A stretch of DNA of 22,035 nucleotides from a virus. The notes under the pieces are model-generated. The model did not search any database. It was not told where the DNA came from and saw only the letters and a list, made by a program, of their open reading frames with translations. Below, one piece after another: positions 4,189-21,091 of this stretch (positions are counted from its first letter, which is position 1; each line of letters opens with the position of its first letter). The stretch spans positions 1-22,035 of IMG/VR virus record IMGVR_UViG_3300043420_000964, one strand, 5' to 3'. The translations under genes were made by a program, and so were the position numbers.

Positions 4189-5754
4189 TTAGAACTCCAA
4201 TACGATTTTAATATCTTCTTTTTGGCTTGAGGACCTTGGAATAGGTTGTCTATTGTCAATATAAATTATTTCACCAGATTTTTTATTATATTCAGCAGAC
4301 GAAATTCCAGCAATAAAATTGCTTCCTAACTGATATGTCCTACTATTTATTACTGTACTAATGCCCGTAAAACCAGAATCAATAGATAGTGTCGGACCAA
4401 TAATACTATCACAAGATATTTCCAAAGATCCTCCAGCAGTGGGAGATGAAGTAAAGTTATTAATTTGGTAATTCACTCTCGCTGTGGCTAGTCCTACTGG
4501 TTGATAATACTTTAAAACTCCTGTAATACTGTCCCATGAAGCAACAAATCCTATTGCGGTTACCCCCAGACCAACTGTTTGAGTGATAACCGAATCAACT
4601 GCGTATGTTGTCTGCGTTGTTACTCCCGACAACTTTAAGGAATTTAAAGCACTTATTTCTGCAGTATTTAATAAATCAACATCGCTACCAAAAACTGTTG
4701 GGTTTTTAATTATTCCAACTCTAGCAAAATCATTTCCGATAATAACATCGGGATTAGTCTCATCAGTATTATAACGAGAATATACCAATACTCGGTATGC
4801 CCCCAATTCCCTGTAAATATCATATCCATGTCCACCTTTGGGTGGTATAACTACACTAAAAGTGGCAATTTCTGAGTCGTTTGAAAGTTCATTGGAAATT
4901 CCGGGAGCACCTGGAGAAAAATTTATAATTCCCTTTGTGTATCCAGATCCACCATCAGTAACAAAAACTTCTGATACTTTACCAAAAGAATCAACAGTTA
5001 CTGTAGCTTTTCCTCCAGTTCCATCTCCCAATATAGGAATATTCGTGAATGATCTTGAAATTGGTTGATATCCGCTGCCCCTATCAGAAATAGTAATGAT
5101 TTCAACTTTTCCGTCTATTGCATTATTTTTTATAGAAATACTCTCTCCAGAAGATCCCCAATTATCAGGAACGGGAATATATTCAATTGAATCAAATTTT
5201 ACAATTTCGGATGGTTTAATGGTATAAAGATACTTCCAGACGTATCCATCTCCACTTGTTCCTGCCGATCTCGGCTCTAAGTCAATAAATGTAGGCTCAT
5301 CAAATGATGGCCTTCCTGCTGGATTTTCTGGGTCTGTTCCATTCTGTAAACAAATGTAAACTCTTAGATCTTCGTTAATTACATAATAATTTGCACCATA
5401 CAAACTTGCTTGATTTGTGATTGGAGTTTTATTGTAAATTGAATAATTGTGCCTGTACATTTCATAAGTTGTACCTGCAGACCACTCAACCTTTCTAATC
5501 ATCCTTTTAATGTCATTGCTAGTTACTTTTTTCATAGCAATGATTGTTTCCTTAATTTGATTCTCTTCATCAAACCCATCAAGAGGTGGGATGCCAGATC
5601 CCCAGTTTGGGGATCCATTTGCCCTTTCATTTGTTGAATTTGGCTGTCCAATAAAAGTATAATAATTATTTGCTGTAGCACCAACAGATACCAAACTCTT
5701 TACGAAGGTATCCGCATTCATTATTCTAAACTGTTCAGATATGATAGCAGGCAT
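4189..5754 (-). CDS. gp8: Baseplate wedge subunit gp8
   Basis: This 521-residue protein matches T4 gp8 at both ends. The DGYVWKYLYTIKP segment near residues 168-180 corresponds to DGYVWEYLFEIPP in T4, and the C-terminal SGEIIYIDNRQPI corresponds to SGEMIYMENRPPI, followed in both by a short acidic strand ending in F. In T4, gp8 is a dimer joining gp10, gp7 and gp6 in the wedge. T4 gp8 has 334 residues; the excess here lies mostly in the middle, including two GxGY repeats (RGSGYQP near 227 and GGSGYTKG near 270) of the kind scattered through the giant protein upstream. The start at 5754 is the first ATG after the upstream stop and begins MPAIISEQFR, comparable to the T4 N-terminal region. No good Shine-Dalgarno sequence is visible, but a late-promoter-like octamer lies 20-28 bases upstream. 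Confidence 0.93.
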   Translation of the reverse strand: MPAIISEQFRIMNADTFVKSLVSVGATANNYYTFIGQPNSTNERANGSPNWGSGIPPLDGFDEENQIKETIIAMKKVTSNDIKRMIRKVEWSAGTTYEMYRHNYSIYNKTPITNQASLYGANYYVINEDLRVYICLQNGTDPENPAGRPSFDEPTFIDLEPRSAGTSGDGYVWKYLYTIKPSEIVKFDSIEYIPVPDNWGSSGESISIKNNAIDGKVEIITISDRGSGYQPISRSFTNIPILGDGTGGKATVTVDSFGKVSEVFVTDGGSGYTKGIINFSPGAPGISNELSNDSEIATFSVVIPPKGGHGYDIYRELGAYRVLVYSRYNTDETNPDVIIGNDFARVGIIKNPTVFGSDVDLLNTAEISALNSLKLSGVTTQTTYAVDSVITQTVGLGVTAIGFVASWDSITGVLKYYQPVGLATARVNYQINNFTSSPTAGGSLEISCDSIIGPTLSIDSGFTGISTVINSRTYQLGSNFIAGISSAEYNKKSGEIIYIDNRQPIPRSSSQKEDIKIVLEF

Positions 5755-5784: not shown

Positions 5785-8700
5785 TTAAACTACACCACGA
5801 GTTCTATAAACATCTGGAGCAGTTGAAAGACCCACAATACCATTGTCAACATTTACAATAAAACTTTGAGGATTTTCTCTTGATCTATTCTGGAAATCAT
5901 ATATTTTACCCCAAGTATATCTTCCCATATATCCTTTAGGATTTGCAAAAGCATCTACTTGAATTGATCCTCCAGAAGGAGAAAGGGCAAAATTACATCC
6001 AACGGTGACAATTCCTGCTACGGGAGCAGTAACCCTTTCAACTCTATATAATCCATCAAGGAATGACACTGCAGTTCCAACCTTAGAGTCTGGATAATTT
6101 CCCAGACCACCCAAATAAGTAGAGATTCCAGTTAAAGCGTGTCCAGCGATTGAATTGCTTTCATATATTACAAAATAATCTCCAACTTCCAAACCGCTAT
6201 ATTCAACTCCATAACTATTAAGAGCAGTATACCCTATACCTAAAGTTGTATTATCATAATTTTCGGATTCTAAAGTAAAGTCAATTGTTGTCGCACCAAC
6301 TCCAATACTCTTAATTATACCAAAGTCTCCCTTGGATTTAATTGAAAATATATTTTCAGACTTAGTGGTATCATATCCAATAATAATTGGAGGTGGAACT
6401 TGTTGGGAATATCCAAATCCGCCATTAGTTATTGTTATTGAAGTTACAATCCCTCCACTAGCACTGGACACTGCAGTTGCTCTATTATATACGGGATCGG
6501 AATAAATTGCAGTTCCAGCAGATCCAACCGCAATATACCGTCCATTGTCACTAAAAGAACTAACAAATATTAAATCATTAAGGATATTTGACTGTAACGT
6601 TGATCTTAATACCCAATTGGTTAAATTGAATGAATAGTATAGATCACCAGATGAAGTTAATGCGGTATAAAATCCGTCATAATATGCAATTTTTTCAAAA
6701 TTTTCGGAAATATCAGTTGTTAATATTTGCCAAGAATTGAATCCAGATGGTGATGTCAATATTGTTCCATTATATCCACAAACAACAAATTTACTTTGAT
6801 CCCATATTACTGATTTTAAATCTTCGGAGGTTCCTAAAGATGGTATCCTTGACCAAATATCTGCAAATTGGGAGTGAATAATAATTCCACCATCACCAAC
6901 TGCAACGAATATTGCTTCATTGTTTGTTACGCTATTCAAATTGTCAAACGAGGGTGGTGTTTTTTGGAGTAGAGAAGTTGATCCAATACCAACTGCAGTA
7001 AATATAATAGAATCACTCCCAACGACAACTATTGTATCCCTTAGTGCCGAATATGTAGAGCTGTAAAATTCTCCCACAAATGGACTTGGCACTATTATTG
7101 GCAAAGGATTGCCAATTTCAAATGTTTCTCTATTTAACTTATACTCTTGCCAAGAATTAAGGGTTGAACCTATCCCTGTGGTAAATATTGCGGTGGCAGT
7201 ACTTCCAACTGCAATGTATTTGTTGGTGGATGCAAAGGAAATGTGATTAAATGAAACTTGACCACTATATCCAATATTGGACATATCCCAACTTTCCCCA
7301 TCACTGCTTGTTGCGATCAATCCACTTGATCCAACCGAAACTAATGCTGTTCCATAAACTATTGAATTAAAATTGTAATCTGTTGAAATTCCGCTGGAAG
7401 AATTCCAACTATAAATTGGATCTTTTTTGGTAATTCTTGAAGAAGATATTGCTACAAATGGAGAATTTGTATCTACATAACCAATTCCCGCAAAGTCAAT
7501 ATTGATACTTGATATGCTAGTAGCAGTTGATACTACTGCAGAAGATAAAGCTGGGACAATTTCTCTATTATCAACAATCTCAATGTCCCTCAAATCCTCA
7601 ACAATTTGGTCAACCTCAGTGAATAGTGGGAATGCATTATTTACATAAATGGTATCATCAAGAATTCCAACATTTTTAATAATTTTTGTTATTGGTGTAA
7701 TTCTTGATTTGAGATCTGGTCTAGATTTCGAATAAAGAACTCCATTTATAACTAAATCTGTAGTTTGCTTAGTCCATTTTAGTGGCCTCTCTTTTAGTGG
7801 ATTTGTATCAATACCAATACTATCATATGTAAAAGTATCTAATGAATTTGAAGAGATGATCCTTTTTACTACTCTATCAAATTGAGGTCTATCAAATGGA
7901 TCTAGGGTATTTTCTCCTATCTGTACAATGTCTCCCTCTTTAATTGTTTTTGGTGGATCAATTTGCTCAACATCTAAATCAGACCCCCTATAGAATAAAA
8001 CATAACACTTTGATCCTGCTTTAGGCGCTTCTTTGAAGCTAATTCTAGATCCATTAAATGTATAAGATTCAATTGGTTCTTGTAGAACATCATTAATATA
8101 AACAAACAAGTTATTTTCAATCTTTAAGTCGGTGCTTGAATCAACTTTGAGACTTAAAATATCAGTAACTCCTCCCTGAGTAACTGTTAAAGTAAATTTC
8201 GTCTTACTTCCATTGAATAGTGGACTTATATCATCAAATTTCACAAATTGCCCAGGATAGAATAAACCGAACTTATCAGTTAATGTTTCAAGAACAGTAA
8301 TTCTAAACTCATCAAATCCAATACCTACTGAGGGATCGGTGACTATTCCAGATACGGTAAGTATATCACCAACCTTATATGAAATTCCAGAAGTTTCTAG
8401 TTTGAATTGAGTAATACTTAAACCAAATCCCACAGATACCGATGCCGTTGCATTTTGTCCTATTCCGGTAGTCCCCCCAGTATAAACCAGTGGCAAATTG
8501 CTATATTCGGCAGGACTATCAACTATTACCTTCGGAAGAGGATTGGAGGTATATCCACTTCCTGCATTTGCAATTGTCAATGAAGTTACTGTTCCTCCGG
8601 AACCTATGGTTGATGTAAATGTTGCACCGCTACCAACATTGCTTATAATAGAAATTTCTGGGGGAGTTCTATAACCAGACCCAAAACCATTTAAGTAGAT

Positions 8701-11700
8701 GTTGGTAATAGATCCTGCTACAGAAACTTGAACAGTTGCTGCTGCAGCAACTAGCGGTTGATATCCATATCCAGTGGTAATTGCAACTCTTACTATTTGT
8801 CCTGCCTTTGGAGTTCCAGATAAGAATCTTACTGTGTTTTGTCCTGGAGTATCAATGGTAAAATCAACTTCGGATGTTTGTGGAACGTTATTGATCAGAA
8901 TAATGGGGTTGTTATTTATATCTGTTGTACTGTTAAGAACACTATTTGTATCCGTAAAAAGGCCAACAACATCATTTTTATTTGATTTTAATATAAATTC
9001 AGTAGCAGCAATACCTGTAAATTGATCAGAAATATCATCAACTACAAAATTTCTATCATTAGGTATATCTGGATCGTATCTTCTACTAAATGCCCTTCCT
9101 TGGAAAGTTGATCTTATCTCCACTCCATCTGGATCTGTTGTGCCGTAGGGTGGAGTTGAGAAATGAATTGTATCGCCTACTATATTAAAGTCTCCACGAA
9201 CTATAGTGACGGCAGAACCAACGTTGTGTGCAGCAGGAACTGACCCAAAGAATCCCCTAACGACACCAACAGCATTTGTTGATCCAATTCCAATACTCTT
9301 AACCTTTAAATATTCGGATCCAATATTGAATACGTCTAATGTTGTAATGGAAGAAATTCCATTGGAAACATAAATTACGCTAGTCCCAATTCCAATTTGC
9401 TCTGATAAAGAAATATTAAAATCTCTTATATAAACCGGAGTTTGTATAATATTATCTATTTGAATTATTACATTTGCATTAGGATTTTCCAATGTAAATG
9501 TTTGTGTGCCAATTCCCAATGAAGTTAAGTTTAAGTTTGTTGATGTAGATAATCCAGAAACATTAAATTTCGTATTATCAACTTTATCAACATAAAGTTT
9601 TGATGGTAATTTATCTGTTCCAAGAACAGTAGGTGATAAAAATATATCATCAGAGGGAGAAGATCCTCCTATATAAGTTCCCCCAATACTAATTCTATCA
9701 CTTAATGCATATCCAACACCACCATTTATCAATTCAATTGATGAAATATCTCCAACAGAATCCCTTGATACATTAAATAATGCACCTGTACCAAAACCAG
9801 ATACTGTAATTCCTGGTATGTTTGTAAATGTGCCATTTGCTGCAGATGGAACATTTGTATTTGCAACCTTTGAAACATTGAATGATAAATCATTTGTTGG
9901 AGATGCTCCACCAAAATATGTACCAGAGATGGAAACAGTATCTCCAACACCATATCCTCTTCCACCATCAACTAAAACAACTGATGTGGAAATTGGTTGC
10001 CCTGTGCTTGAGTTGTACACAATAAATACACTAAATTTAGCGCCTGTTCCTATTCCTGTTAGTGAAGTAGATTCAAATCCAGTTGGGAATCCATAAAATC
10101 TACTTTGCAGACTACTAAAGTTTGGTATTATTGCGGAAGAAACTCCACTAACGGTAGTACTTATTGCAACATTATACCCATTTTCATAAATGGCACTACC
10201 AACACCAGCACCAATTTCCATAATAATACTAGATTCTGTAGATGCAACAGAAATATATTGATTCTGACCTTCACCGTTAATAACAACAACAGAGCTATCA
10301 ACAAATGAGGTAGTTGCAATTCCAATTTTATCACTATTAAGTGCAGAATAATATAAAACTTGCCCACTTTGTAAATTGTGGAAATTGATATTAAACCGAT
10401 TCAAAGATAGATCAACAACAGATGCATCTGAACTATCAAATACTCTATGGAAAAGAGGGGCAGAATTAGAAGTTAATTTAAAAGTAGATAGTCCTACCAC
10501 TTCCCCACCAATTGTTGTAGTAAAACCTGTAAATTGTGGACTAATATCGTCAATTTTTATTACCTTATTAGTTTTGCTTAAAATATAAGGTCTTAATTCT
10601 ACACCATCTGGGAAAAATATTCTTTCTACTGAACCATCAGGTAAAGATTCTTCCTCCGTCACCATTGAGAAGTTATAACGATTATATATGGACTCTTGTT
10701 GATCAATATTGATGAGAAAATCTAAAGTTGATTCTCCAGTAGTCACCTTCATATCCGATGACTTTGATATTCCTACTTTCACCACACCGTCAGTTACAAT
10801 TCCAACAACATCAAGGTCAGAAAATTCCTTTAATCCTGCGGGATGAATTAAAGTTTTTACTGATTCTTTCCAAGTTTCATAATTTAATTCGCTTTTAATT
10901 GAGTATGAGAATTTCTGATAATAATCATTATCAGAAATTCTTTGTTGATAATCATTTAGATGCCCTATGTTATCTCCAAAGTTATTAACTTTGTCTCGGA
11001 AAACTCCTAGAGTTGATTCTAAATTAAAATTGTTAACTATTTCAACAATACCATTTAATCTTGATCTTTCTCCATATAAAGTATCCCCAACGTTCAATTC
11101 GCCTTTAGAATCAATCATTCTCAATTGATTGATATTATTGTCCCACCCATTCTGCATTACATTAGCAGTGAATGTGTTGGTTCCATTACTATCGTAACCA
11201 AGAATCTTCTCTCCAGAGAAATAGCTTAAATCATCAATTATATTCATCTCAAACTCAGCCATATCTCGCTTATTTACTACAAATCCATAATTAAAATCAT
11301 TTGTGTATTCTCCAAGATTATTTGATATTCCCTCCATACTGTAAGTAACTGTAAAGTTTGACGTATTAATACCAGTTACAGTAAAGAATCTATACCCATA
11401 ATCCGAAGAATTGAAATTGTCTTTTTCAACAATATTACCAGATCCATCAACTTCAGTTAAATTTATCCTACAATTCTCTATAAAAATTTGATCTCCAACA
11501 GAGAATGGGAAATCAATTTCTTTTCCACCATAACTTGTTGCTATGAATGGGAAAATCTGAATATCGGAATTTGATAATTCTAAAGTAACATCGTTTCCAG
11601 CAACTACAATATCATCAATATCATATCCATTTGAATTCCTAGTAGAAACTATTCTTAAAGGAGATGAAAGATTAGAAACATTTTGATCTATCGAAGTTTT

Positions 11701-14700
11701 AACTACAGACCCACCTTGAATTTCGCAAGAAACTCTAATGTCATCATTGCCAATAACTTTAAGTCTTGGTGCCCTATTGTATCCCTTTCCGCCAGTTACA
11801 ATACCAACATTCCCAATTCTGGAAATCCCACTTATTTGTACAACAGTGGGGATACTTAGGAAAGGCTTTAATGTTTTATCTGTAGGATAATCATATCCAT
11901 CTTTAATTCTTTCCAGTAGATCAATTCTTCCAATAGTATCTGAAATTGCTCTAATAATCGCACCAGATCCAGTTGTAGAAGCAACAGAAACAACTCTAGG
12001 AATTTTCTTATATCCTTTTCCACCAAAGTTAACTTTTAATTTTGAAATTGCACCAGTGGTATTTTTGGAGTTGGTGTCATAGAAAATAGAGGAAATACCA
12101 GCAATAGTTGTATATGTAGTAGTTTCTGGTCTTCCATTAAAGTTAATTTTAAATGATGTTGAACCTGTAGATACTATACTATACTCATCAATATACTTAC
12201 TTGGGACAATATTGATCTTATTTCTTCCAAATACTTCACTATCGGAGGAAATTTGATATTTTTCTGCTGCAATTGGAGATAGTGGAATTAATGTATAATA
12301 AAATGTTTTCTCAATACCAGATGTTCTAGTATTAATTGTTAGTTTTGCATTTGATAAACCAGATTCTATTGAATTTCTTGTATATTTGTAGGTTTCCAAT
12401 TCTTTTGAGAATTCTAAATCCCTAAACAATTTTAAATCCATTCCCGATAAAGAGGAGTCAGATAAATCAAATACTATATTATTATTGTTTGTAAACTCTA
12501 CCGGAGGATTAATCAGTGCGATAGACTGTGTTCCTGTTCCTGCAGATGAAAATACGATTGAATTTCCAATAATACTATCATACTGCGTATTTGCCAGATT
12601 AAATCTATCTGGGTGGTTTTTAATGACATAATATGCTTTATTATTTGTTAATCCACCAATAGTAGTATTTCCTTGATCGTAATATACTATCTTATCTCCA
12701 GTTTTTAAATTATTATTTGGAATTACAATTTCTGAGGAATCGGTCAGAACAGTATTAAATGTTTTAAGAGCGGTAGTAATCTTTCTTAATTGCAAATCAT
12801 AACGTAAAGATACAGTTTCAACCAAATTTGGTATTAAATTAAATTTAACATGATCACCATCACGTAAATTATGATTGCTCTCAGTAGTTGCACTTAAGAA
12901 AAAGTTTTCAACTCTTCCGGTTACGTTTGGATAACGAGTTGTAATTGAGTGTGATGCTCCAGTAACACCAATAGAGTCGTAAATAAACAGAGAATTGTTA
13001 GTGGTTGAAATGCCACTAGAAGTTGTAAATCCGACTGTTGAAATTCCCAGATAATCTTTTCCGTATCTTACTGCATATAAAGTTTGATTATCAATCAAGT
13101 TAAATGCAGATGAGAAGTCGCTATCAGAAACTAGAAGACCAGTTCCACCAATTCCGACGTTATATTTAAGTTGCTGCCCAGAAAATAAATTATGGTCTTT
13201 GATATAAATTGTTTTTGGTGGTACAAATAAATTCTGACCATTAAATAATTCGTAGTTACTACCTGTAGTTCCAAATCCAACTAGTGTTTTAGAGTTGAAA
13301 TAAAGAGTGTTGTTCTTTTTTATTTTTTGATTAGTAGAATTACTTGAGAAAACAAACTTTCTTGGAAGAAGAGTAACTGAGGAAATTCCAGCAGTATGAA
13401 TACCAATATTGTCAATTCTATCTACAGAAAGCATTAGACGATCAGAATCAATAGAGGTAATTCTCAATGTCTCCGAATCAATTTGAATATAATCATTTAC
13501 TTCATACCCACTAATATCATTAACAAAAACATTAGTAGAGTCACCTGTGGCCAAATAATCTCCAATATCTGTAACAATACCTGTGTTTGATATTTGCTGA
13601 ACAAATATGGATTTAAATCCTTCATATTCAGAATACTGATTTGTTGATATTCCACTTATTAATACTTTATCCCCGTTTAATAAATTATGTGGGTATCCAA
13701 CATCCACTGTAATGCTATTTCCATAATTGCTAAAATATGCATTATTAAAGGTGGCAATTCCAACATTGATGTTATATAGACCTTTGCCTCTTACCCTTGA
13801 TACTGCAGCAGATGCTCCTGTTCCCCCAGTATCAACATTATCAAACACCAAATTATCAGATACTTTATAGTTATTTCCTCTACTGTAAATCAATAAATCA
13901 TCAATTGATGAAGGATAAATTTGTTCAACTAAAAATTCTTGCTTATACTTGGGTCTTATCTTTTCAATAAGACCATATCCAGAATATGTTGAATTTACAT
14001 AGTATGGTCCTAAGTTACGAATTAAAGATATTGAACCCGATTCAATCTGATTGCTAAATTCATCTTGATTAAATCTTGAGTTAAAATTCTCCAGAATTGG
14101 ATTTGATTTAAAATGATTACCAATCAAATAAGGGTAAATTGCAGAGGAACTTGGATTTGAATCAATAGTCATGAAGTAAGCATAGGTTCCATTTGGAAAT
14201 TCTGGTGTAATACAAAATCTTCCATTATATTCATCAAGGTCTCCAGAAGACCTATTAAAAGAGTAATCTTGAACGAAGAATCCTTCAGGAAAATCTGGTC
14301 TCAATAGAGTATTTGCCTCCACATCTTTTACATAACTTGATCTTACTCTTCTTACTTCAGAATCCACTTGTCCATATGGACCATAAATTGGATTACCATC
14401 ATATGCCCATCCAATTATGGGAGAATGTATTCCATTGATTACTTCCTTACTGTCATTACCAATGTGATCATCAATAGACTTTCTTAAGATCTTGGGTGGA
14501 TAAAAATGAACAAATTGTAAACCAAATTCTTGATTTCTGCTTGGAACAATTATTCCCTCATCATCCAAATCAAGTAGATTTTTATTTTTCTCTACTTGAT
14601 TTATTTTCCACTCAAAAATATTTCCGATAAATTTGGCATCTGTTCCTCTTCTTTTAACAGAAAGAGATGTTTTATCTTTGTCATACCCAATTCCTCCGTT

Positions 14701-17700
14701 AATTACATTTACATTTACGATTCTTCCATTTTCAATGATGGGGTCCAGTTCTGCGAAAGATCCTTTACCATTAACAACAATATCAATTCCTTCATTATAT
14801 CCTCTTCCGAAATTTAATATCTGGACATCTACGATAGATCCATTAAGAATAATTGGTTTTAATAGTGCTTCTGATGTAATACTTGATATTCCAACATACG
14901 GTCTTCTATGGAAATTAATAATGTCAGAAGAACCATATCCAATACCACCATCAGTTATGAAAACACTATCAACGGAACCAGTAATAACTGGTTTTAATGT
15001 TGGTTTGACTGCGGTTGTTGATCCGATTCCAGATAGTGATTCTATAACAATTTCAATAGGTGGATATGAAAACGTATGTGCTCCCGAACCAAGACTTTCG
15101 AGAGAAATATATTTTTTATTATTGAAATTATTATCGTTTAAACTAGTCCCTATTCCTGCTTCTGACAACTTAAATATATTTGAATCAACAACAGTCACAT
15201 AATATTGAGTTTCTGTTGAAAGTCCACTAATTGCAGAATTTGAATATGAATATCTAACTAAATCCTTGTTTTTGAAATTATGATTTTTAGCAAAAATATA
15301 ATCATCAAAGGTGTTTACTCCATTTGTATTTCCATCAAAAGAAAGAGTTGAAGGAACAGTAACCTTTTTATTTGAATACCCAGAACCACTATTCTTTACA
15401 TATATTTTTGTTATTGTATTTTTGGAATTTAATGATTTTAGTCTGTGGAATCCAGAACTTATTCCTACCAAATTTATATTATTTACTTTTTGTATAGCAT
15501 CAAATTTTGTAGTATATAGCTTTAATTGCCTAGAACTTTCTATACCAACAAAATATGTTGAATTTGATACTAGTGGGTTTAAATTAGAGTTAAAGTTTGA
15601 ATCATATATTACTTCTTCTCCATCATCAAAATTGTGGTTTTCAATAAATGTAATTGTATCATTAGTTGGATTTACACCTCCACCATCTCCCTTAAAACCA
15701 GAAATAATCTGAGATCTTACTAAATTTGGTTCAATTACTGCACCAGATCCATTTCCACCAATCAAAGTAATTTTTGGTTTAGTTTGGTATCCAATTCCAG
15801 GAGTAATGATTTTTACTTCCTTTAATGACCCACTTACGTTTAAATGTACATCGGCACCGTAACCATTTTGATCCAAAACGTCTAATCTTGGATAATTAAT
15901 TACATCATACCCGCTACCAAAATTGGTAATTTCAATAGAATTAATAGTTCCATAGTAAATATTCTCATCATAGAGAGTTGGAGAATAAATTTCTACCCCA
16001 TTTACTAGTATCCCTACTTGTCTATTATTTGTTTTCTTATCTTCTTTATCAACAAATACTGTTTCTGAGTTATTTGCTTTAAACTTCTTGAATATTTTTT
16101 GATTGAATAGATCTTTATTTTGATAATCAAGCTTAACAAAATAATCACTAACAATTCCAGGATTTATTTCTATATATTTTTTAGCAAATAAATCATTTTT
16201 ACTATAAGATAATCTAATTCTAGTGCTATCTTTTGGATTTCCTACTGTAGTTACGTGATAAATTCCGGTGTTTATGCCACTATTTGTAGAGGAAAAATAA
16301 TAAATTTTCTCTCCGGTATAAAAATTATGAACCGAAGTAGTTTCCAGAACTGTTGTCTTTGCTGCCCCGGCCAATGTGAAGACATTTATTTTTCTATTTT
16401 CTGAGAATAATTTATATGATGGTAGACCCGAAGAGGCAACATAGAAGTTTTCACTATCTGAGTCAATGTAAGTATTTTGTACATTGCTTGGTAATATTGA
16501 AATGGATGGAAAATTATTTTTATTGCTTGAAGCTTTCGCAATGATTTTTTCTACTCTGGTTTTGCCGAAAAGACTAAAAGTAGATTCAACCTCAATAATA
16601 TTATCAGAAAGTATATTTGTTACTTTTGCTGTTCTTATTAAGTCATTTTCATCGTCCAAATTTAGAAACTTTAGGTTCTCATCATAGTAAAAAACAACAG
16701 AATCGTAGAATTCAACTCTCCATATAGATGCTGCTGGGGAAGTTATGTTTTTAATTTCGTGATTTGTGGGAATATTATAAATCCAACTGTTAAATTTTGG
16801 ATCTTCACTTAAATCTATACCAAATGAAGATAATGCAACTTTATCTCCTACTCTAAGATTTGAAGTTTTTGAATAATCTACATTATCAATTACATTAATA
16901 AGACGGAATTTAATTTCACTTTGATCCTCAAGGAATGAGTAAACTAAATTATCTTCTAAAATTATATCACCAAAAGATAAATCAAAATTTAGTCCTGTAA
17001 CTCCCAAAAATTGATTTGTATTTTTGTCAGTATATTCGACAGTAAATGTATCTGATAGATCCTTAGATTTTACTAGAAGTTTCCCACTATTTGAAAATCC
17101 AACAGTAGAATCAACAAAAATATAATTTGAACCTATTGAAACATCCTCTAAAACCTTTGTTGTTTTAGTTGTAGTAAAATTAGAAATAAATGATTCACCA
17201 TCTAAAGATATCTCATATAAATTCGCATTGTCTAATGGCCTAAATTCTACATTGTAAATTGATGCACTTGCGGAAGTAGTATTATCGATGTCTTGATATA
17301 ATGTCTTACCATTTAATTCTAATGGATCTCCACCAGAAAGTTTTTCAACTAAAACATTTTTAGTAATAATATAATTATTGTCTGATGGTCTCAGCAAATA
17401 CTCTTGAGGCTTAATTACACTAATTTTTTTATCATAAAGTATACTAAAGAGTAATTTGAATGCAGTGTCGGTTCCTTTTGCAGAGTAAAAATCTCTTGCT
17501 CTAGACAAAATATTTTTAATCTTTATTCCTTCAGCAAAAGTTCTATTTTCAAATCCAGGAATAAATTGACTTTTAAATTTAGTAAAGAGTCTATCGTAAA
17601 AAATTAAATTTAAATTTTCAACTACTGAAGAATTGGTATGAGAAGATGCAGAAGTAGTGGAAAAACTCAAAACTTCTGAATTCAAATCACTACTTAACTT

Positions 17701-18087
17701 ATCGATACCACTAAATCCACGAATACAACCAGTAAAAGTTGTACTTGTTTTGCCGGTATACGTAATAATTTCATCATCAATTTTCAGTAAACCATACTTT
17801 GAAGGGAATCCTATAGTATGATTCACTGAAATTATATCATCAAATGCTACTATTTCTTCTGTAAGGACGCAAGGGATTGCTTTTGTAAAAAATGTCTCGT
17901 TATTGAAATTCTCAATAGACTTATAAAAAGGTAAATTTTCTGCTAAATTTACCGCACCAGTCTGATGTTCTTGTGATATATAATATTGTTCTAAAAACTC
18001 TCTAAAAAGTGGTGATTCATCACTCAGAAATTCTGGAATTTGTGAGTCTACAATATTTTGAATTTTTACTCTTTTGATATCTGACAT
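5785..18087 (-). CDS. Giant modular baseplate/virion structural protein (4100 aa) at the gp7 position
   Basis: A single 4100-residue frame with no interruption. It starts one base after the gp6 stop and lies between gp6 and gp8, where T4 has gp7 (about 1030 residues); I see no direct similarity to T4 gp7. Cyanophage relatives at this position have been annotated as VrlC-like or simply as structural proteins. Regions seen: residues 1-250, a conserved-looking head (MSDIKRVKIQNIVDSQIPEF; RARDFYSAKGTDTAFKLLF near 200) that probably anchors it in the wedge; about sixteen GxGY repeats between 720 and 3900; a YHYH-type domain near 1180-1325; HN..G..V.Y...YYV repeats (about 585, 810, 930, 1630, 1790); DDIS..F.G modules near 2515, 3020 and 3287; a tandem duplication near 2674-2823; a probable beta-propeller at 3572-3863; and a C-terminal RYTWGKIYDFQNRSR/GLSTAPDVYR tail seen on other cyanophage structural proteins. 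No signal peptide or membrane segment. Probably a late virion protein; a role in cell-surface contact is inferred from the repeats and propeller. Confidence 0.9.
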   Translation of the reverse strand: MSDIKRVKIQNIVDSQIPEFLSDESPLFREFLEQYYISQEHQTGAVNLAENLPFYKSIENFNNETFFTKAIPCVLTEEIVAFDDIISVNHTIGFPSKYGLLKIDDEIITYTGKTSTTFTGCIRGFSGIDKLSSDLNSEVLSFSTTSASSHTNSSVVENLNLIFYDRLFTKFKSQFIPGFENRTFAEGIKIKNILSRARDFYSAKGTDTAFKLLFSILYDKKISVIKPQEYLLRPSDNNYIITKNVLVEKLSGGDPLELNGKTLYQDIDNTTSASASIYNVEFRPLDNANLYEISLDGESFISNFTTTKTTKVLEDVSIGSNYIFVDSTVGFSNSGKLLVKSKDLSDTFTVEYTDKNTNQFLGVTGLNFDLSFGDIILEDNLVYSFLEDQSEIKFRLINVIDNVDYSKTSNLRVGDKVALSSFGIDLSEDPKFNSWIYNIPTNHEIKNITSPAASIWRVEFYDSVVFYYDENLKFLNLDDENDLIRTAKVTNILSDNIIEVESTFSLFGKTRVEKIIAKASSNKNNFPSISILPSNVQNTYIDSDSENFYVASSGLPSYKLFSENRKINVFTLAGAAKTTVLETTSVHNFYTGEKIYYFSSTNSGINTGIYHVTTVGNPKDSTRIRLSYSKNDLFAKKYIEINPGIVSDYFVKLDYQNKDLFNQKIFKKFKANNSETVFVDKEDKKTNNRQVGILVNGVEIYSPTLYDENIYYGTINSIEITNFGSGYDVINYPRLDVLDQNGYGADVHLNVSGSLKEVKIITPGIGYQTKPKITLIGGNGSGAVIEPNLVRSQIISGFKGDGGGVNPTNDTITFIENHNFDDGEEVIYDSNFNSNLNPLVSNSTYFVGIESSRQLKLYTTKFDAIQKVNNINLVGISSGFHRLKSLNSKNTITKIYVKNSGSGYSNKKVTVPSTLSFDGNTNGVNTFDDYIFAKNHNFKNKDLVRYSYSNSAISGLSTETQYYVTVVDSNIFKLSEAGIGTSLNDNNFNNKKYISLESLGSGAHTFSYPPIEIVIESLSGIGSTTAVKPTLKPVITGSVDSVFITDGGIGYGSSDIINFHRRPYVGISSITSEALLKPIILNGSIVDVQILNFGRGYNEGIDIVVNGKGSFAELDPIIENGRIVNVNVINGGIGYDKDKTSLSVKRRGTDAKFIGNIFEWKINQVEKNKNLLDLDDEGIIVPSRNQEFGLQFVHFYPPKILRKSIDDHIGNDSKEVINGIHSPIIGWAYDGNPIYGPYGQVDSEVRRVRSSYVKDVEANTLLRPDFPEGFFVQDYSFNRSSGDLDEYNGRFCITPEFPNGTYAYFMTIDSNPSSSAIYPYLIGNHFKSNPILENFNSRFNQDEFSNQIESGSISLIRNLGPYYVNSTYSGYGLIEKIRPKYKQEFLVEQIYPSSIDDLLIYSRGNNYKVSDNLVFDNVDTGGTGASAAVSRVRGKGLYNINVGIATFNNAYFSNYGNSITVDVGYPHNLLNGDKVLISGISTNQYSEYEGFKSIFVQQISNTGIVTDIGDYLATGDSTNVFVNDISGYEVNDYIQIDSETLRITSIDSDRLMLSVDRIDNIGIHTAGISSVTLLPRKFVFSSNSTNQKIKKNNTLYFNSKTLVGFGTTGSNYELFNGQNLFVPPKTIYIKDHNLFSGQQLKYNVGIGGTGLLVSDSDFSSAFNLIDNQTLYAVRYGKDYLGISTVGFTTSSGISTTNNSLFIYDSIGVTGASHSITTRYPNVTGRVENFFLSATTESNHNLRDGDHVKFNLIPNLVETVSLRYDLQLRKITTALKTFNTVLTDSSEIVIPNNNLKTGDKIVYYDQGNTTIGGLTNNKAYYVIKNHPDRFNLANTQYDSIIGNSIVFSSAGTGTQSIALINPPVEFTNNNNIVFDLSDSSLSGMDLKLFRDLEFSKELETYKYTRNSIESGLSNAKLTINTRTSGIEKTFYYTLIPLSPIAAEKYQISSDSEVFGRNKINIVPSKYIDEYSIVSTGSTSFKINFNGRPETTTYTTIAGISSIFYDTNSKNTTGAISKLKVNFGGKGYKKIPRVVSVASTTGSGAIIRAISDTIGRIDLLERIKDGYDYPTDKTLKPFLSIPTVVQISGISRIGNVGIVTGGKGYNRAPRLKVIGNDDIRVSCEIQGGSVVKTSIDQNVSNLSSPLRIVSTRNSNGYDIDDIVVAGNDVTLELSNSDIQIFPFIATSYGGKEIDFPFSVGDQIFIENCRINLTEVDGSGNIVEKDNFNSSDYGYRFFTVTGINTSNFTVTYSMEGISNNLGEYTNDFNYGFVVNKRDMAEFEMNIIDDLSYFSGEKILGYDSNGTNTFTANVMQNGWDNNINQLRMIDSKGELNVGDTLYGERSRLNGIVEIVNNFNLESTLGVFRDKVNNFGDNIGHLNDYQQRISDNDYYQKFSYSIKSELNYETWKESVKTLIHPAGLKEFSDLDVVGIVTDGVVKVGISKSSDMKVTTGESTLDFLINIDQQESIYNRYNFSMVTEEESLPDGSVERIFFPDGVELRPYILSKTNKVIKIDDISPQFTGFTTTIGGEVVGLSTFKLTSNSAPLFHRVFDSSDASVVDLSLNRFNINFHNLQSGQVLYYSALNSDKIGIATTSFVDSSVVVINGEGQNQYISVASTESSIIMEIGAGVGSAIYENGYNVAISTTVSGVSSAIIPNFSSLQSRFYGFPTGFESTSLTGIGTGAKFSVFIVYNSSTGQPISTSVVLVDGGRGYGVGDTVSISGTYFGGASPTNDLSFNVSKVANTNVPSAANGTFTNIPGITVSGFGTGALFNVSRDSVGDISSIELINGGVGYALSDRISIGGTYIGGSSPSDDIFLSPTVLGTDKLPSKLYVDKVDNTKFNVSGLSTSTNLNLTSLGIGTQTFTLENPNANVIIQIDNIIQTPVYIRDFNISLSEQIGIGTSVIYVSNGISSITTLDVFNIGSEYLKVKSIGIGSTNAVGVVRGFFGSVPAAHNVGSAVTIVRGDFNIVGDTIHFSTPPYGTTDPDGVEIRSTFQGRAFSRRYDPDIPNDRNFVVDDISDQFTGIAATEFILKSNKNDVVGLFTDTNSVLNSTTDINNNPIILINNVPQTSEVDFTIDTPGQNTVRFLSGTPKAGQIVRVAITTGYGYQPLVAAAATVQVSVAGSITNIYLNGFGSGYRTPPEISIISNVGSGATFTSTIGSGGTVTSLTIANAGSGYTSNPLPKVIVDSPAEYSNLPLVYTGGTTGIGQNATASVSVGFGLSITQFKLETSGISYKVGDILTVSGIVTDPSVGIGFDEFRITVLETLTDKFGLFYPGQFVKFDDISPLFNGSKTKFTLTVTQGGVTDILSLKVDSSTDLKIENNLFVYINDVLQEPIESYTFNGSRISFKEAPKAGSKCYVLFYRGSDLDVEQIDPPKTIKEGDIVQIGENTLDPFDRPQFDRVVKRIISSNSLDTFTYDSIGIDTNPLKERPLKWTKQTTDLVINGVLYSKSRPDLKSRITPITKIIKNVGILDDTIYVNNAFPLFTEVDQIVEDLRDIEIVDNREIVPALSSAVVSTATSISSINIDFAGIGYVDTNSPFVAISSSRITKKDPIYSWNSSSGISTDYNFNSIVYGTALVSVGSSGLIATSSDGESWDMSNIGYSGQVSFNHISFASTNKYIAVGSTATAIFTTGIGSTLNSWQEYKLNRETFEIGNPLPIIVPSPFVGEFYSSTYSALRDTIVVVGSDSIIFTAVGIGSTSLLQKTPPSFDNLNSVTNNEAIFVAVGDGGIIIHSQFADIWSRIPSLGTSEDLKSVIWDQSKFVVCGYNGTILTSPSGFNSWQILTTDISENFEKIAYYDGFYTALTSSGDLYYSFNLTNWVLRSTLQSNILNDLIFVSSFSDNGRYIAVGSAGTAIYSDPVYNRATAVSSASGGIVTSITITNGGFGYSQQVPPPIIIGYDTTKSENIFSIKSKGDFGIIKSIGVGATTIDFTLESENYDNTTLGIGYTALNSYGVEYSGLEVGDYFVIYESNSIAGHALTGISTYLGGLGNYPDSKVGTAVSFLDGLYRVERVTAPVAGIVTVGCNFALSPSGGSIQVDAFANPKGYMGRYTWGKIYDFQNRSRENPQSFIVNVDNGIVGLSTAPDVYRTRGVV
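6499..7374 (-). other. Encoded domain: probable seven-bladed beta-propeller with BNR/Asp-box-like repeats
   Basis: Residues about 3572-3863 of the giant protein contain seven consecutive units of about 42 residues. Each has a hydrophobic strand with an A/V-V-G core (VSVGSSGLIATS, YIAVGSTATAIFTT, IVVVGSDSIIFTA, FVAVGDGGIIIHS, FVVCGYNGTILTS, FYTALTSSGDLYYS, YIAVGSAGTAIYS), and most then have a turn and a tryptophan (SSDGESW, STLNSW, FADIW, GFNSW, LTNW). This is the pattern of the BNR/Asp-box and Ycf48-like propeller superfamily; only the first unit keeps a clear SxDGxxW box. The unit count is read directly; the fold is inferred. Propellers in phage tails commonly bind glycans or proteins, but no catalytic sialidase residues can be assigned here. 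Confidence 0.65.
9619..10068 (-). repeat. Tandem duplication of a GxGY module inside the giant gene
   Basis: Two neighbouring segments of about 65-70 residues (copy 1 at 9859-10068, copy 2 at 9619-9807) share the same order of motifs: GIGTGAKFSV versus GFGTGALFNV, then VLVDGGRGYGVGDTVSISG versus ELINGGVGYALSDRISIGG, then TYFGGASPTND versus TYIGGSSPSDD. The linker between them holds a further short Gly/Pro-rich stretch. The similarity is higher than between other GxGY copies in the protein, which suggests a more recent duplication. Confidence 0.75.
14113..14550 (-). other. Encoded domain: YHYH-type domain
   Basis: Residues about 1180-1325 of the giant protein contain IIGWAYDGNPIYGPYG, then about 50 residues later LDEYNGRFCITPEFPNGTYAYF, and then YPYLIGNHF. 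This order (Gly-Trp-Ala-Asp-Gly-Pro-Ile-Tyr-Gly, Asp-Glu-Asn-Gly-Arg, Pro-Glu-Pro-Gly-Thr-Tyr) is what I know of the YHYH family. The eponymous YHYH tetrad reads YAYF here, so both histidines are replaced. The biochemical role of the family is not well established; here it is embedded as a module of a structural protein. Confidence 0.7.
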
Positions 18088-18088
18088 T

Positions 18089-19972
18089 TTATCTTGTATA
18101 TGCTCCGTTTACGTAGCTGGATGTTGTTATATAATCTGTTGCTGAAGTGTTTTCTCCGGAAGTAATAGTATCCTCTATCATATTTACCACAGTATTTGAC
18201 ATACTCAATTCTAAATATATATCCTTCAAGGCTATGATATCATTTGAGTCTGGAACTGCTTGAATTTGTATACCATCGGGATTAACCGAACTTGTAATAT
18301 TAACCACATCGAGGGTTATTTCTCCTTTCTCATAATTAACAACACCTGCGTTATTCTTTACTATTGCAGGTATATTATTTTCAAGTCTAAAGAAGAATAT
18401 GGTTCCTGTAGTTTCCGTTGTTGGAACATCACTCAAGTAAATTATTCCATTTACACCATCAATTGAGAATCCTGATGATTTTATATTATATCCTCTACCA
18501 TCAGATAAATTGTTCTTCTTGACGTAAAATTTATTACCGAAACAAATCTCATAGGTGGATAATTTATTATATGCTGGTTGTAGATCTCTCCTAATTTTTA
18601 TTTTTGTTATATTGGAGGTAATTGAATCGCTAGTATTATCAATCAATGATACGACTTTACTATATTTAAATCTTCCACCAAAGTTATTAATCTCATAAGA
18701 ATCACCATAAGACTTTAAAGTATTAATAACACTTGATTGCAAATTAAGTACATCTGATGTTGAACTCTTGTCATAATATACATTGGCATCAAGTTCAATG
18801 AAGAGGTACTTTAAGTCAACAATCTCTGGTTTAATTCCAGCAACAGAATACTGCTTTAGTTGCTTTTTAATTGTTTCTTTTGTTAATTGCGATAAATATT
18901 TTCCTCTTCTTGGTTTTATTGATATAAAAACTTTACCATACTCTGGTGGATCTAATTCATCTCCCCCATAAGCAGTTACAGAATCAACATTTGGGAACAA
19001 ATATGGTATTAAACCTTTATAGTCATTTGCAGTTACTGCTCTATATTGTGATGCATAAACTCTTGGTCCAAGGTATTTGATTGAATCTATAGGTTCAATA
19101 TCATCCCCATTTTCGGCGCTCTGGACAGTTGTTATGAGGGAAACACCCGAGGTTACTAAAGTATTGTTATTATCCCTTAGAACGCCAGAAAACGTGAAAT
19201 TGGAAGCACCATCTGCATCCTTACCATTAGTAGTAATGTAAGTTACTGAAATAGATGTGCCATTGATTGGCCTTTTCCCGATAATATCATCACCAAAAAT
19301 AATTTCATATTGTTCATCTTCAATTTCTTGTATCAAGAATACCTTTGATTCTTTCTGAAGATCAAAGATATTGGTGTATAACTTATATTCTTCTGTTGTT
19401 GTATTTGATGCATATACTCTAATTGTAGAAGTATCAATGTTAGAGTTGGGCAAAATAAATCTTTGATTTGGTTGAGAATTATCAACCACAAAGTTTTTCT
19501 TTAAAAATGCACCTTCAAATAATTCAACATCAGAAAATGTTGCCAACCCAGAATTATCTACAGGAACTGTCTTATCTTCTGGTAAAGAAAATATGTAGTT
19601 GCCACCTTCAACCGCACCAAGAGCAACAACTCCCGCCTTCAATACAACAGTCCTAGAGTCTCTTCCTGTTGTGTCTACAGTAAAATTAATTTTTGCTCTT
19701 GATGCTCTCTTTGATCTGGGAATGTATCCAATATTTCTAGCAAGAGAAACCACATTTTCTCTTAATGTTGCGCTGTCAAGAAACGACTCATTAACTGCCA
19801 TATTGGTGTTATAGGCAGTTATGTAACTATTATAAGATAAAACGTCAATTAGTGTTGAAAAATTAGATCCCTCAAAGTCAAAATCAGTAAAATTACTATT
19901 AGATCTCAAATAATCTTTTATCTGTGATCTTAAATCGCTAAAATCTAAATTTGTAAACTGATTGAAAGACAT
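18089..19972 (-). CDS. gp6: Baseplate wedge subunit gp6
   Basis: The 627-residue product is close to T4 gp6 in length (660). The N-terminus (MSFNQFTNLDFSDLRSQIKD, then about 70 residues of helix-rich sequence with DVLSYNSYITAYNTNMAVNE) is the characteristic start of cyanophage gp6. Residues about 300-415 resemble the Baseplate_J core: GPRVYASQYRAVTANDYKGL, a glycine-containing turn, VFISIKPRRGKYLS, then a helix and a strand pair. In T4, gp6 dimers bridge neighbouring wedges and form the continuous ring around the hub that reorganises during contraction. The ATG overlaps the gp25 stop as TAATG and has no clear Shine-Dalgarno sequence, so initiation probably depends on ribosomes finishing gp25. 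The stop is one base before the giant gene, extending the coupled chain. Confidence 0.95.
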   Translation of the reverse strand: MSFNQFTNLDFSDLRSQIKDYLRSNSNFTDFDFEGSNFSTLIDVLSYNSYITAYNTNMAVNESFLDSATLRENVVSLARNIGYIPRSKRASRAKINFTVDTTGRDSRTVVLKAGVVALGAVEGGNYIFSLPEDKTVPVDNSGLATFSDVELFEGAFLKKNFVVDNSQPNQRFILPNSNIDTSTIRVYASNTTTEEYKLYTNIFDLQKESKVFLIQEIEDEQYEIIFGDDIIGKRPINGTSISVTYITTNGKDADGASNFTFSGVLRDNNNTLVTSGVSLITTVQSAENGDDIEPIDSIKYLGPRVYASQYRAVTANDYKGLIPYLFPNVDSVTAYGGDELDPPEYGKVFISIKPRRGKYLSQLTKETIKKQLKQYSVAGIKPEIVDLKYLFIELDANVYYDKSSTSDVLNLQSSVINTLKSYGDSYEINNFGGRFKYSKVVSLIDNTSDSITSNITKIKIRRDLQPAYNKLSTYEICFGNKFYVKKNNLSDGRGYNIKSSGFSIDGVNGIIYLSDVPTTETTGTIFFFRLENNIPAIVKNNAGVVNYEKGEITLDVVNITSSVNPDGIQIQAVPDSNDIIALKDIYLELSMSNTVVNMIEDTITSGENTSATDYITTSSYVNGAYTR

Positions 19973-20373
19973 TATATTCTAGATGGTAGTAGTAAAAACT
20001 CTATGTTCTGTGAGGGGAATCCCTGCCCAACAATATCATAATCAATTTTTACGTTCATTTCGTTTGTATCCTCTGGAAATTCAACAAAAACATTTCTTAC
20101 ACTTATTCTTGGTTCAAAATTTTTAAGAGTAGATTCGATTTGTTGAGTTATAAATATCGCTTGCGATTCATCTTGATTTTCAAAGAGAGAATTCTCAACA
20201 GAAGATCCAATTAAGGGGTTAAAAAATCTCTCTCCAATACGAGTTCTTACCAAATTTATGACAGATCTTTTGATGGCATCTTCATTCTTGATAGGAATGA
20301 TATCGTTAGTTACAGGATGTCTAGAAAAAGACAAACTAATGTCTTTAAAACTCCTGGAAATCTTGAGTGCCAT
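19972..20373 (-). CDS. gp25: Baseplate wedge subunit gp25
   Basis: A 133-residue protein, matching T4 gp25 (132 residues) and the GPW_gp25 family shared with the TssE sheath-initiator proteins of type VI secretion. The family's central EPR motif is present as NFEPRISVRNV near residues 90-100, preceded by a conserved region in which IKRSVINLVRTRIGERFFNP (near 34-53) includes the usual R.GER.F.P pattern. gp25 sits at the inner baseplate ring and starts sheath polymerisation. The start at 20373 gives MALKISRSFKD; an ATG five bases upstream is out of frame. No strong ribosome binding site is visible in the AT-rich leader. It is the first gene of the baseplate operon in this window and overlaps gp6 by one base. 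Confidence 0.96.
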   Translation of the reverse strand: MALKISRSFKDISLSFSRHPVTNDIIPIKNEDAIKRSVINLVRTRIGERFFNPLIGSSVENSLFENQDESQAIFITQQIESTLKNFEPRISVRNVFVEFPEDTNEMNVKIDYDIVGQGFPSQNIEFLLLPSRI

Positions 20374-20714: not shown

Positions 20715-21041
20715 TTAACGTAAAACGTGTCGTAGATTATAATTATCAGAATTTAAGTATTTTAACATTTCTAATGCAATTAATTTGGGATTTCCAGGTC
20801 CACAAGTATAAACATCAATTGCAATACACCCTTCTTCTGGCCAAGTATGGCAAGAAACGTGACTTTCCGATAATGCTATGACTATTGTACATCCTTGAGG
20901 ATAAAAACAATGCTGAAAAACGTTCAAAATAGTCATTCCAGCACGTTCAATTCCCTTTTTCATAACTCTTTCGAGTTTAAGTGCATCATTAAGGAGCAAA
21001 TAATTGACCTCATACACCTCTAAGAGAAGGTGATTGCCCAT
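20715..21041 (-). CDS. speD: S-adenosylmethionine decarboxylase proenzyme
   Basis: The product decarboxylates S-adenosylmethionine to supply the aminopropyl donor for spermidine synthesis. It is a pyruvoyl enzyme made by self-cleavage of a proenzyme. The 108-residue product has the small bacterial (class 1B) form with all key residues: the cleavage site Glu59-Ser60 in SESHVSCHTWPEEG, His65, and Cys80 in DVYTCG; spacing agrees with Ser63, His68 and Cys83 of the Thermotoga enzyme. I chose the ATG at 21041 because it gives MGNHLLLEVYEV, the usual family N-terminus, with GGAAAAG nearby as a ribosome binding site; a TTG at 21086 would add 15 residues that look unlike the family. speD is a known auxiliary metabolic gene of T4-like cyanophages; polyamines may help DNA packaging or host physiology during infection. 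It is intact and probably functional. Confidence 0.95.
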   Translation of the reverse strand: MGNHLLLEVYEVNYLLLNDALKLERVMKKGIERAGMTILNVFQHCFYPQGCTIVIALSESHVSCHTWPEEGCIAIDVYTCGPGNPKLIALEMLKYLNSDNYNLRHVLR

Positions 21042-21091
21042 TGAAAACTTTTCCAACCCCAAACCCCCACAAAATATCGCAAACAAGTTAT

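Follow-up and report, generated by a model that had tools for sequence, protein, structure and literature searches.

Does a cyanophage baseplate protein carry a beta-propeller of its own and, if so, from where was this domain acquired and what could it do for the virion? The question is raised by a 22,035-nucleotide viral fragment (IMG/VR record IMGVR_UViG_3300043420_000964, positions 1 to 22,035; the whole of it is hereafter 'the window'), in which a very large protein contains, near its C-terminus, a series of similar units. The basis on which T4-like cyanophages discriminate between Synechococcus strains is poorly understood.

A giant gp7-like protein in the wedge operon

The window holds the wedge operon of a T4-like cyanophage on its minus strand, namely gp25, gp6, a gp7-like protein of 4,100 residues and gp8 (table 1). 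The large protein occupies the place of T4 gp7, i.e. between gp6 and gp8. Its single sequence matched neither T4 gp7 nor any other PDB entry, whereas the profile of its family matched T4 gp7 weakly, over 33 residues (E 9.5e-5; the only other match listed had E 0.32). Apart from this short match, solved structures offered no detectable relative of the giant gp7-like wedge proteins. From synteny, the PHROG assignment and this weak similarity, we infer that the protein belongs to the baseplate, which agrees with the preliminary description of the repeats as part of a cyanophage baseplate protein, close to its C-terminus.

Table 1. Coordinates of the features discussed (positions in the window).
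Feature	Position	Strand	Evidence
gp25 baseplate wedge protein	19972..20373	-	PHROG 261
gp6 baseplate wedge protein	18089..19972	-	PHROG 219
gp7-like baseplate wedge protein, 4,100 aa, carrier of the predicted propeller	5785..18087	-	PHROG 2885 'baseplate wedge subunit', E = 0; between gp6 and gp8
gp8 baseplate wedge protein	4189..5754	-	PF09215; PHROG 438
GGxGY-type beta repeat adjoining the propeller on its N-terminal side (AGIGY)	7447..7551	-	Sequence comparison; model strands E7-12, E18-25, E38-40
Predicted seven-bladed beta-propeller domain, residues 3551-3868	6484..7437	-	AlphaFold2 model; Foldseek to Ycf48 and designed seven-bladed propellers; 51-sequence alignment
N-terminal strand, residues 3561-3563, with invariant W3561	7399..7407	-	DSSP strand 54-56 of the model; W in 51/51
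Blade 2/3 insertion loop	7069..7122	-	Column identity averaging 0.26, the minimum within the propeller
GGxGY beta repeat adjoining the propeller on its C-terminal side (NGGFGY)	6373..6483	-	Sequence comparison; model strands E364-370, E373-381, E394-396
C-terminal region common to propeller-bearing and propeller-lacking gp7	5788..6483	-	Sequence comparison

Repeat units and predicted fold

The range first delimited for the repeats, 6499-7374, is open and in frame on the minus strand and corresponds to residues 3572-3863 of the ORF running from 18087 to 5785. Seven units are indeed present (41, 61, 41, 41, 40, 39 and 34 residues), the summed pairwise similarity of which reaches 640, versus 415 ± 19 in composition shuffles (12 SD; maximum of 500 shuffles, 471) and at most 561 in all the other stretches tried in the gp7-like protein. 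The initial portrait of these units was accurate in outline and too regular in detail. A length of about 42 residues suits most of them (39-41), but not unit 2 (61, with a 20-residue insertion) or unit 7 (34); the A/V-V-G strand announced for every unit occurs in six, unit 6 reading TALTSSG; and a terminal tryptophan, ascribed to most units, is indeed present in five of the seven, unit 3 having none. The folded domain is slightly larger than this range on both sides (table 1).

The fold was modelled with AlphaFold2 from an alignment of the window and 50 IMG/VR relatives (51 sequences), yielding a mean pLDDT of 84 over 593 residues and of approximately 92 across the propeller. DSSP assigned seven groups of strands to this model, in which residues 3551-3868 are predicted, as opposed to solved, to form a closed seven-bladed beta-propeller. 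Structure prediction could have returned no closed propeller; it returned one, with the Ycf48-like fold that had been proposed. Indeed, Ycf48 ranked first in a Foldseek search against the PDB, and the best matches are seven-bladed (TMt of 0.78 to the seven-bladed designed v13WRAP-T versus 0.60 to the eight-bladed Tako8). The model also suggests how the ring would close. Only three strands belong to blade 7 itself, and blade 1 is preceded by a short strand bearing W3561, a residue situated before unit 1 and outside the range 6499-7374. As this tryptophan is invariant in all 51 aligned sequences, its strand is the candidate for closure: it would pair with blade 7 as the outer strand, in the manner of a velcro, and W3561 would most likely be the tryptophan of blade 7.

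PHROGs contains no family for the propeller alone. A predicted structure of the S-SSM7 homologue is already public, so that the fold was already there to be found. In the literature searched, no paper combined cyanophage, baseplate and propeller, and none placed a propeller inside a T4-type wedge gp7. Phage tail propellers are already known; what is new here is the location of one inside the gp7 wedge protein.

Insertion site and distribution among relatives

The propeller interrupts the loop that links two GGxGY beta repeats. At the aligned empty sites of S-SM2, S-B05, S-T4, Bellamy and SynMITS9220M01, a stretch of 7-15 residues connects this pair of repeats, and two further isolates, P-TIM68 and P-SSM5, possess the C-terminal region and lack the propeller according to its HMM. 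A structure model of an empty site retains the order of the strands and has, where the propeller would be, a loop of low confidence; this model is poor overall (pLDDT 52) and informs on strand order only.

In scans of IMG/VR, for which closer alignment subsets served as queries, those bearing the propeller found 133 and 18 matches, and one lacking it found 424. Among the loci fetched, the propeller HMM detected the domain in 99/99 from the propeller branch and in 0/80 from the propeller-less branch, all 80 of which keep the C-terminal region; as each query had been either with or without the propeller from the start, these counts define two clean classes and not frequencies. Relatives lacking the domain, which the preliminary description had suggested looking for, thus exist both as these 80 metagenomic loci and as the seven isolates named above. 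Host genus is not put forward as the determinant of the propeller: the isolates with a gp7 propeller have Synechococcus hosts, but propeller-less relatives infect Synechococcus too, and the Prochlorococcus phages with the C-terminal region in this host comparison are two only.

We propose that a complete propeller, with its N- and C-termini side by side, was inserted into the loop between the GGxGY repeats of the gp7-like protein. Such an event would exemplify how GGxGY beta-repeat loops can take up a whole foreign domain, a simple growth route for such proteins.

Descent and conservation of the propeller

In a gp8 tree, all eight bearers of a gp7 propeller (seven isolates plus the window) fall on the same side of a single branch (support 92/96), and the trait needs one change. 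In addition, the identities of the propeller and of the C-terminal flank are correlated (Mantel r 0.905, 0/2000 permutations). Given this single change and this parallel divergence, one insertion followed by vertical descent fits as the simplest reading. Independent acquisitions were set aside as unnecessary, the gp8 tree requiring a single change, and module swapping between phages was not seen, as propeller identity tracks that of the flank. On the sequences compared, the gp7 propeller is confined to one branch of T4-like Synechococcus phages.

In 98% of pairs, conservation is lower in the propeller than in the C-terminal flank. When gp7 was divided into 200-residue blocks, the propeller was the lowest in identity both against S-SCSM2R (0.30; others 0.35-0.61) and against S-CAM9 (0.29; at least 0.32 in the remaining aligned blocks), these two full-length comparisons being the basis on which we call it the least conserved block of gp7.

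Origin: host Ycf48 or generic propellers

A derivation of the module from Ycf48 of the host had been put forward as a possibility. Ycf48/HCF136 (PF14870 PSII_BNR; PDB 2xbg, 5oj3, 5ojr and 8am5) is seven-bladed too and, besides being the top structural match, was the only solved family found below E 1e-5 (E 1e-9) when the PDB was searched with the propeller profile; the single propeller sequence gave no match in the PDB. However, this origin is hardly credible in view of the remaining comparisons. Searches against Ycf48 profiles stayed below the family cut-offs (22.9 bits versus 27 for PF14870, and 20.5 versus 326 for the Ycf48 equivalog NF010237, both on the window), and the Asp-boxes expected of such families are nearly absent. 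Indeed, the canonical S/T-x-D-x-G-x-T/S-W box numbers two to four in each of 80 Ycf48s, whereas it is missing from 50 of the 51 phage propellers and occurs once in the other. The phage domains carry instead a box shorter by one residue, S/T-x-D/N-G-x-x-W (zero to six per domain, the commonest count being two). Moreover, all eight arginine columns conserved at more than 90% in the 80 Ycf48s, those of the arginine patch included, are mostly non-arginine in the phage propellers. A conserved arginine patch of Ycf48 mediates binding to membrane proteins (review, PMC9145668); its positions were deduced here from Arg/Glu differences between PDB 5ojr and 5ojp (Arg in 2xbg and 5ojr, Glu in 5ojp). The Ycf48 probe combined a sequence taken from an alignment with an N-terminal leader added by hand and was used only to collect real Ycf48 genes. 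Embedding in a virion protein is a further difference between the phage propeller and Ycf48.

Generic phage and bacterial propellers of the 'FVAVG...SxDGxxW' type (DUF6242-like) match far better than Ycf48. With the phage propeller HMM, Ycf48 scored at most 41 bits, versus 122 for a cyanobacterial IPT-domain protein and 215 for a protein of Limnohabitans phage DC31, the latter value summing eight overlapping repeat matches and so overstating kinship; the gap between generic propellers and Ycf48 is itself partly owing to repeat number, as long repeat proteins add up score. A similar ranking was obtained with hhalign (99.5%, E 8e-23 for the IPT-domain protein versus 67%, E 5e-5 for Ycf48). As for DUF6242 itself (PF19755), the window had no match at E 0.1, LC03 and S-CBWM1 were sub-threshold, the latter near the family, and the DC31 protein lay above the threshold (32.6 versus 29) and is a Pfam member. 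Consequently to these comparisons, the propeller was most likely recruited from a generic short-box (DUF6242-like) pool of phage and bacterial surface proteins, and not from host Ycf48.

The closest sequence relatives found outside Kyanoviridae gp7 are the DC31 protein and the 'BNR repeat domain protein' of Synechococcus phage S-CBWM1, which is located among tail genes. Unlike the propeller described here, both are encoded by stand-alone genes (L010:8903-10693 and L011:7166-10795) without insertion in gp7, and DC31 has more repeats.

Possible roles on the baseplate

In T4, gp7 occurs as six monomers and is a peripheral pin component that moves upon baseplate opening (PMC3004832). With one copy per wedge, a cyanophage protein in the equivalent position would furnish the baseplate with six propellers. 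We favour, with a probability of about one half, a function of the propeller as a wedge-borne host-surface-binding domain, on account of its fast evolution. It would bind with low affinity a component of the cell surface (an LPS sugar or an envelope protein) and help the baseplate to settle there once the cell has been located by the tail fibres. For the site of specificity, the variable blade 2/3 loop would be the best guess.

Binding of a glycan or envelope protein agrees both with the rapid divergence of the domain and with precedents in other phages. The C-terminal domain of PhiKZ gp131 (PDB 4GBF) is a seven-bladed propeller at the periphery of a myophage baseplate, proposed to bind a receptor (PMC4901313). 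There, the propeller is the C-terminal domain of the protein, whereas here it is a loop insertion in gp7; no sequence match linked the two, and 4gbf was absent among the 50 Foldseek matches listed. In phi11, the platform of the receptor-binding protein Gp45 is likewise a baseplate propeller for host recognition and has a GlcNAc-sized cavity (PMC4901313), but it has five blades and belongs to a trimeric, separate receptor-binding protein directed at a Gram-positive host. Several observations nevertheless speak against surface binding. Fast evolution could also reflect weak constraint, the domain is co-inherited with its flank without the module swapping seen in many receptor-binding domains, and propellers of phage tails can be structural or fibre-docking.

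This last case is that of the nozzle protein propeller of SU10 and T7, part of a podovirus tail channel; in SU10 it is seven-bladed, lines the channel and carries the dock of the short tail fibre (PMC9509320). By analogy, the gp7 propeller might be a docking platform by which a tail fibre, or some other peripheral protein of the virion, is attached to the wedge, with no contact of its own with the host. Co-inheritance with the flank suits a structural partner, and further structural genes lie downstream in those propeller-bearing isolates that were examined (S-SSM7), PHROG 15769 being found in S-CAM9 and DSL-LC03 and PHROG 10330 in Sf-FS3 and S-SSM7. Yet no fibre gene was found common to all propeller-bearing phages, the downstream genes differing between clades A and B, and the least conserved block of gp7 is unlike a fixed interface. 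We regard docking as the main rival to surface binding, though somewhat unlikely.

A lack of any active role was also considered, the propeller then being a neutral or mildly stabilizing insertion tolerated at an exposed loop. Low conservation would be expected of such an insertion, and the propeller-lacking branch gave more matches in the scans (424 versus 151). However, the domain is kept intact, as its reading frame contains no stop codon in the 50 aligned homologous stretches, at identities to the window down to 27%, which makes this explanation improbable.

Some phage propellers are endosialidases. An enzymatic propeller, sialidase-like or otherwise glycan-cleaving, could open the cell surface, and the phi11 propeller resembles carbohydrate-active enzymes (PMC4901313). 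Here, this activity is very improbable: besides the near absence of canonical Asp-boxes, profile searches of the window matched no glycosidase family, and invariance among the 51 propellers is confined to Gly, Trp, Val, Phe and Ser columns, none being acidic.

Surface binding by the wedge thus remains our preferred reading. More tentatively, one branch of T4-like cyanophages may carry a host-binding domain on gp7 itself; if true, these phages would attach by means of their tail fibres and, in addition, of a receptor-binding module integral to the wedge. The propeller is a bounded and probably expressible domain, for which natural propeller-free relatives could serve as controls in assays of cell binding.

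Other features of the locus

The propeller phages S-CAM9 and DSL-LC03, of clade B, share a PHROG 15769 protein of unassigned function that is encoded downstream of their wedge operons (L008:25452-27269 and L007:25464-26795) and is a possible partner of the propeller.

Within the window, an unfinished ORF of 1,394 residues is found at the site of genes annotated VrlC or DUF4815 in relatives, and an S-adenosylmethionine decarboxylase (PF02675, E 1.4e-28; 20715-21086, minus strand) adjoins the wedge operon. An Rfam search of the window returned no match.

The organization of gp7 varies among phages: it is a single ORF of 5,172 residues in S-SCSM2R (L006) and is split into two or three ORFs in Sf-FS3, S-SSM7 and DSL-LC02 (L004, L005 and L015), the propeller always being in the last. 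In a pairwise alignment with S-CAM9 gp7, none of residues 2601-2800 of the gp7-like protein (window 9688-10287) was aligned, and this stretch is perhaps a second variable insertion. The same protein also includes a YHYH domain (PF14240, E 2.5e-22; window 14155-14430, residues 1220-1311), the motif of which, GWAYDGNPIYGPYG, is mostly invariant across eight aligned gp7s.
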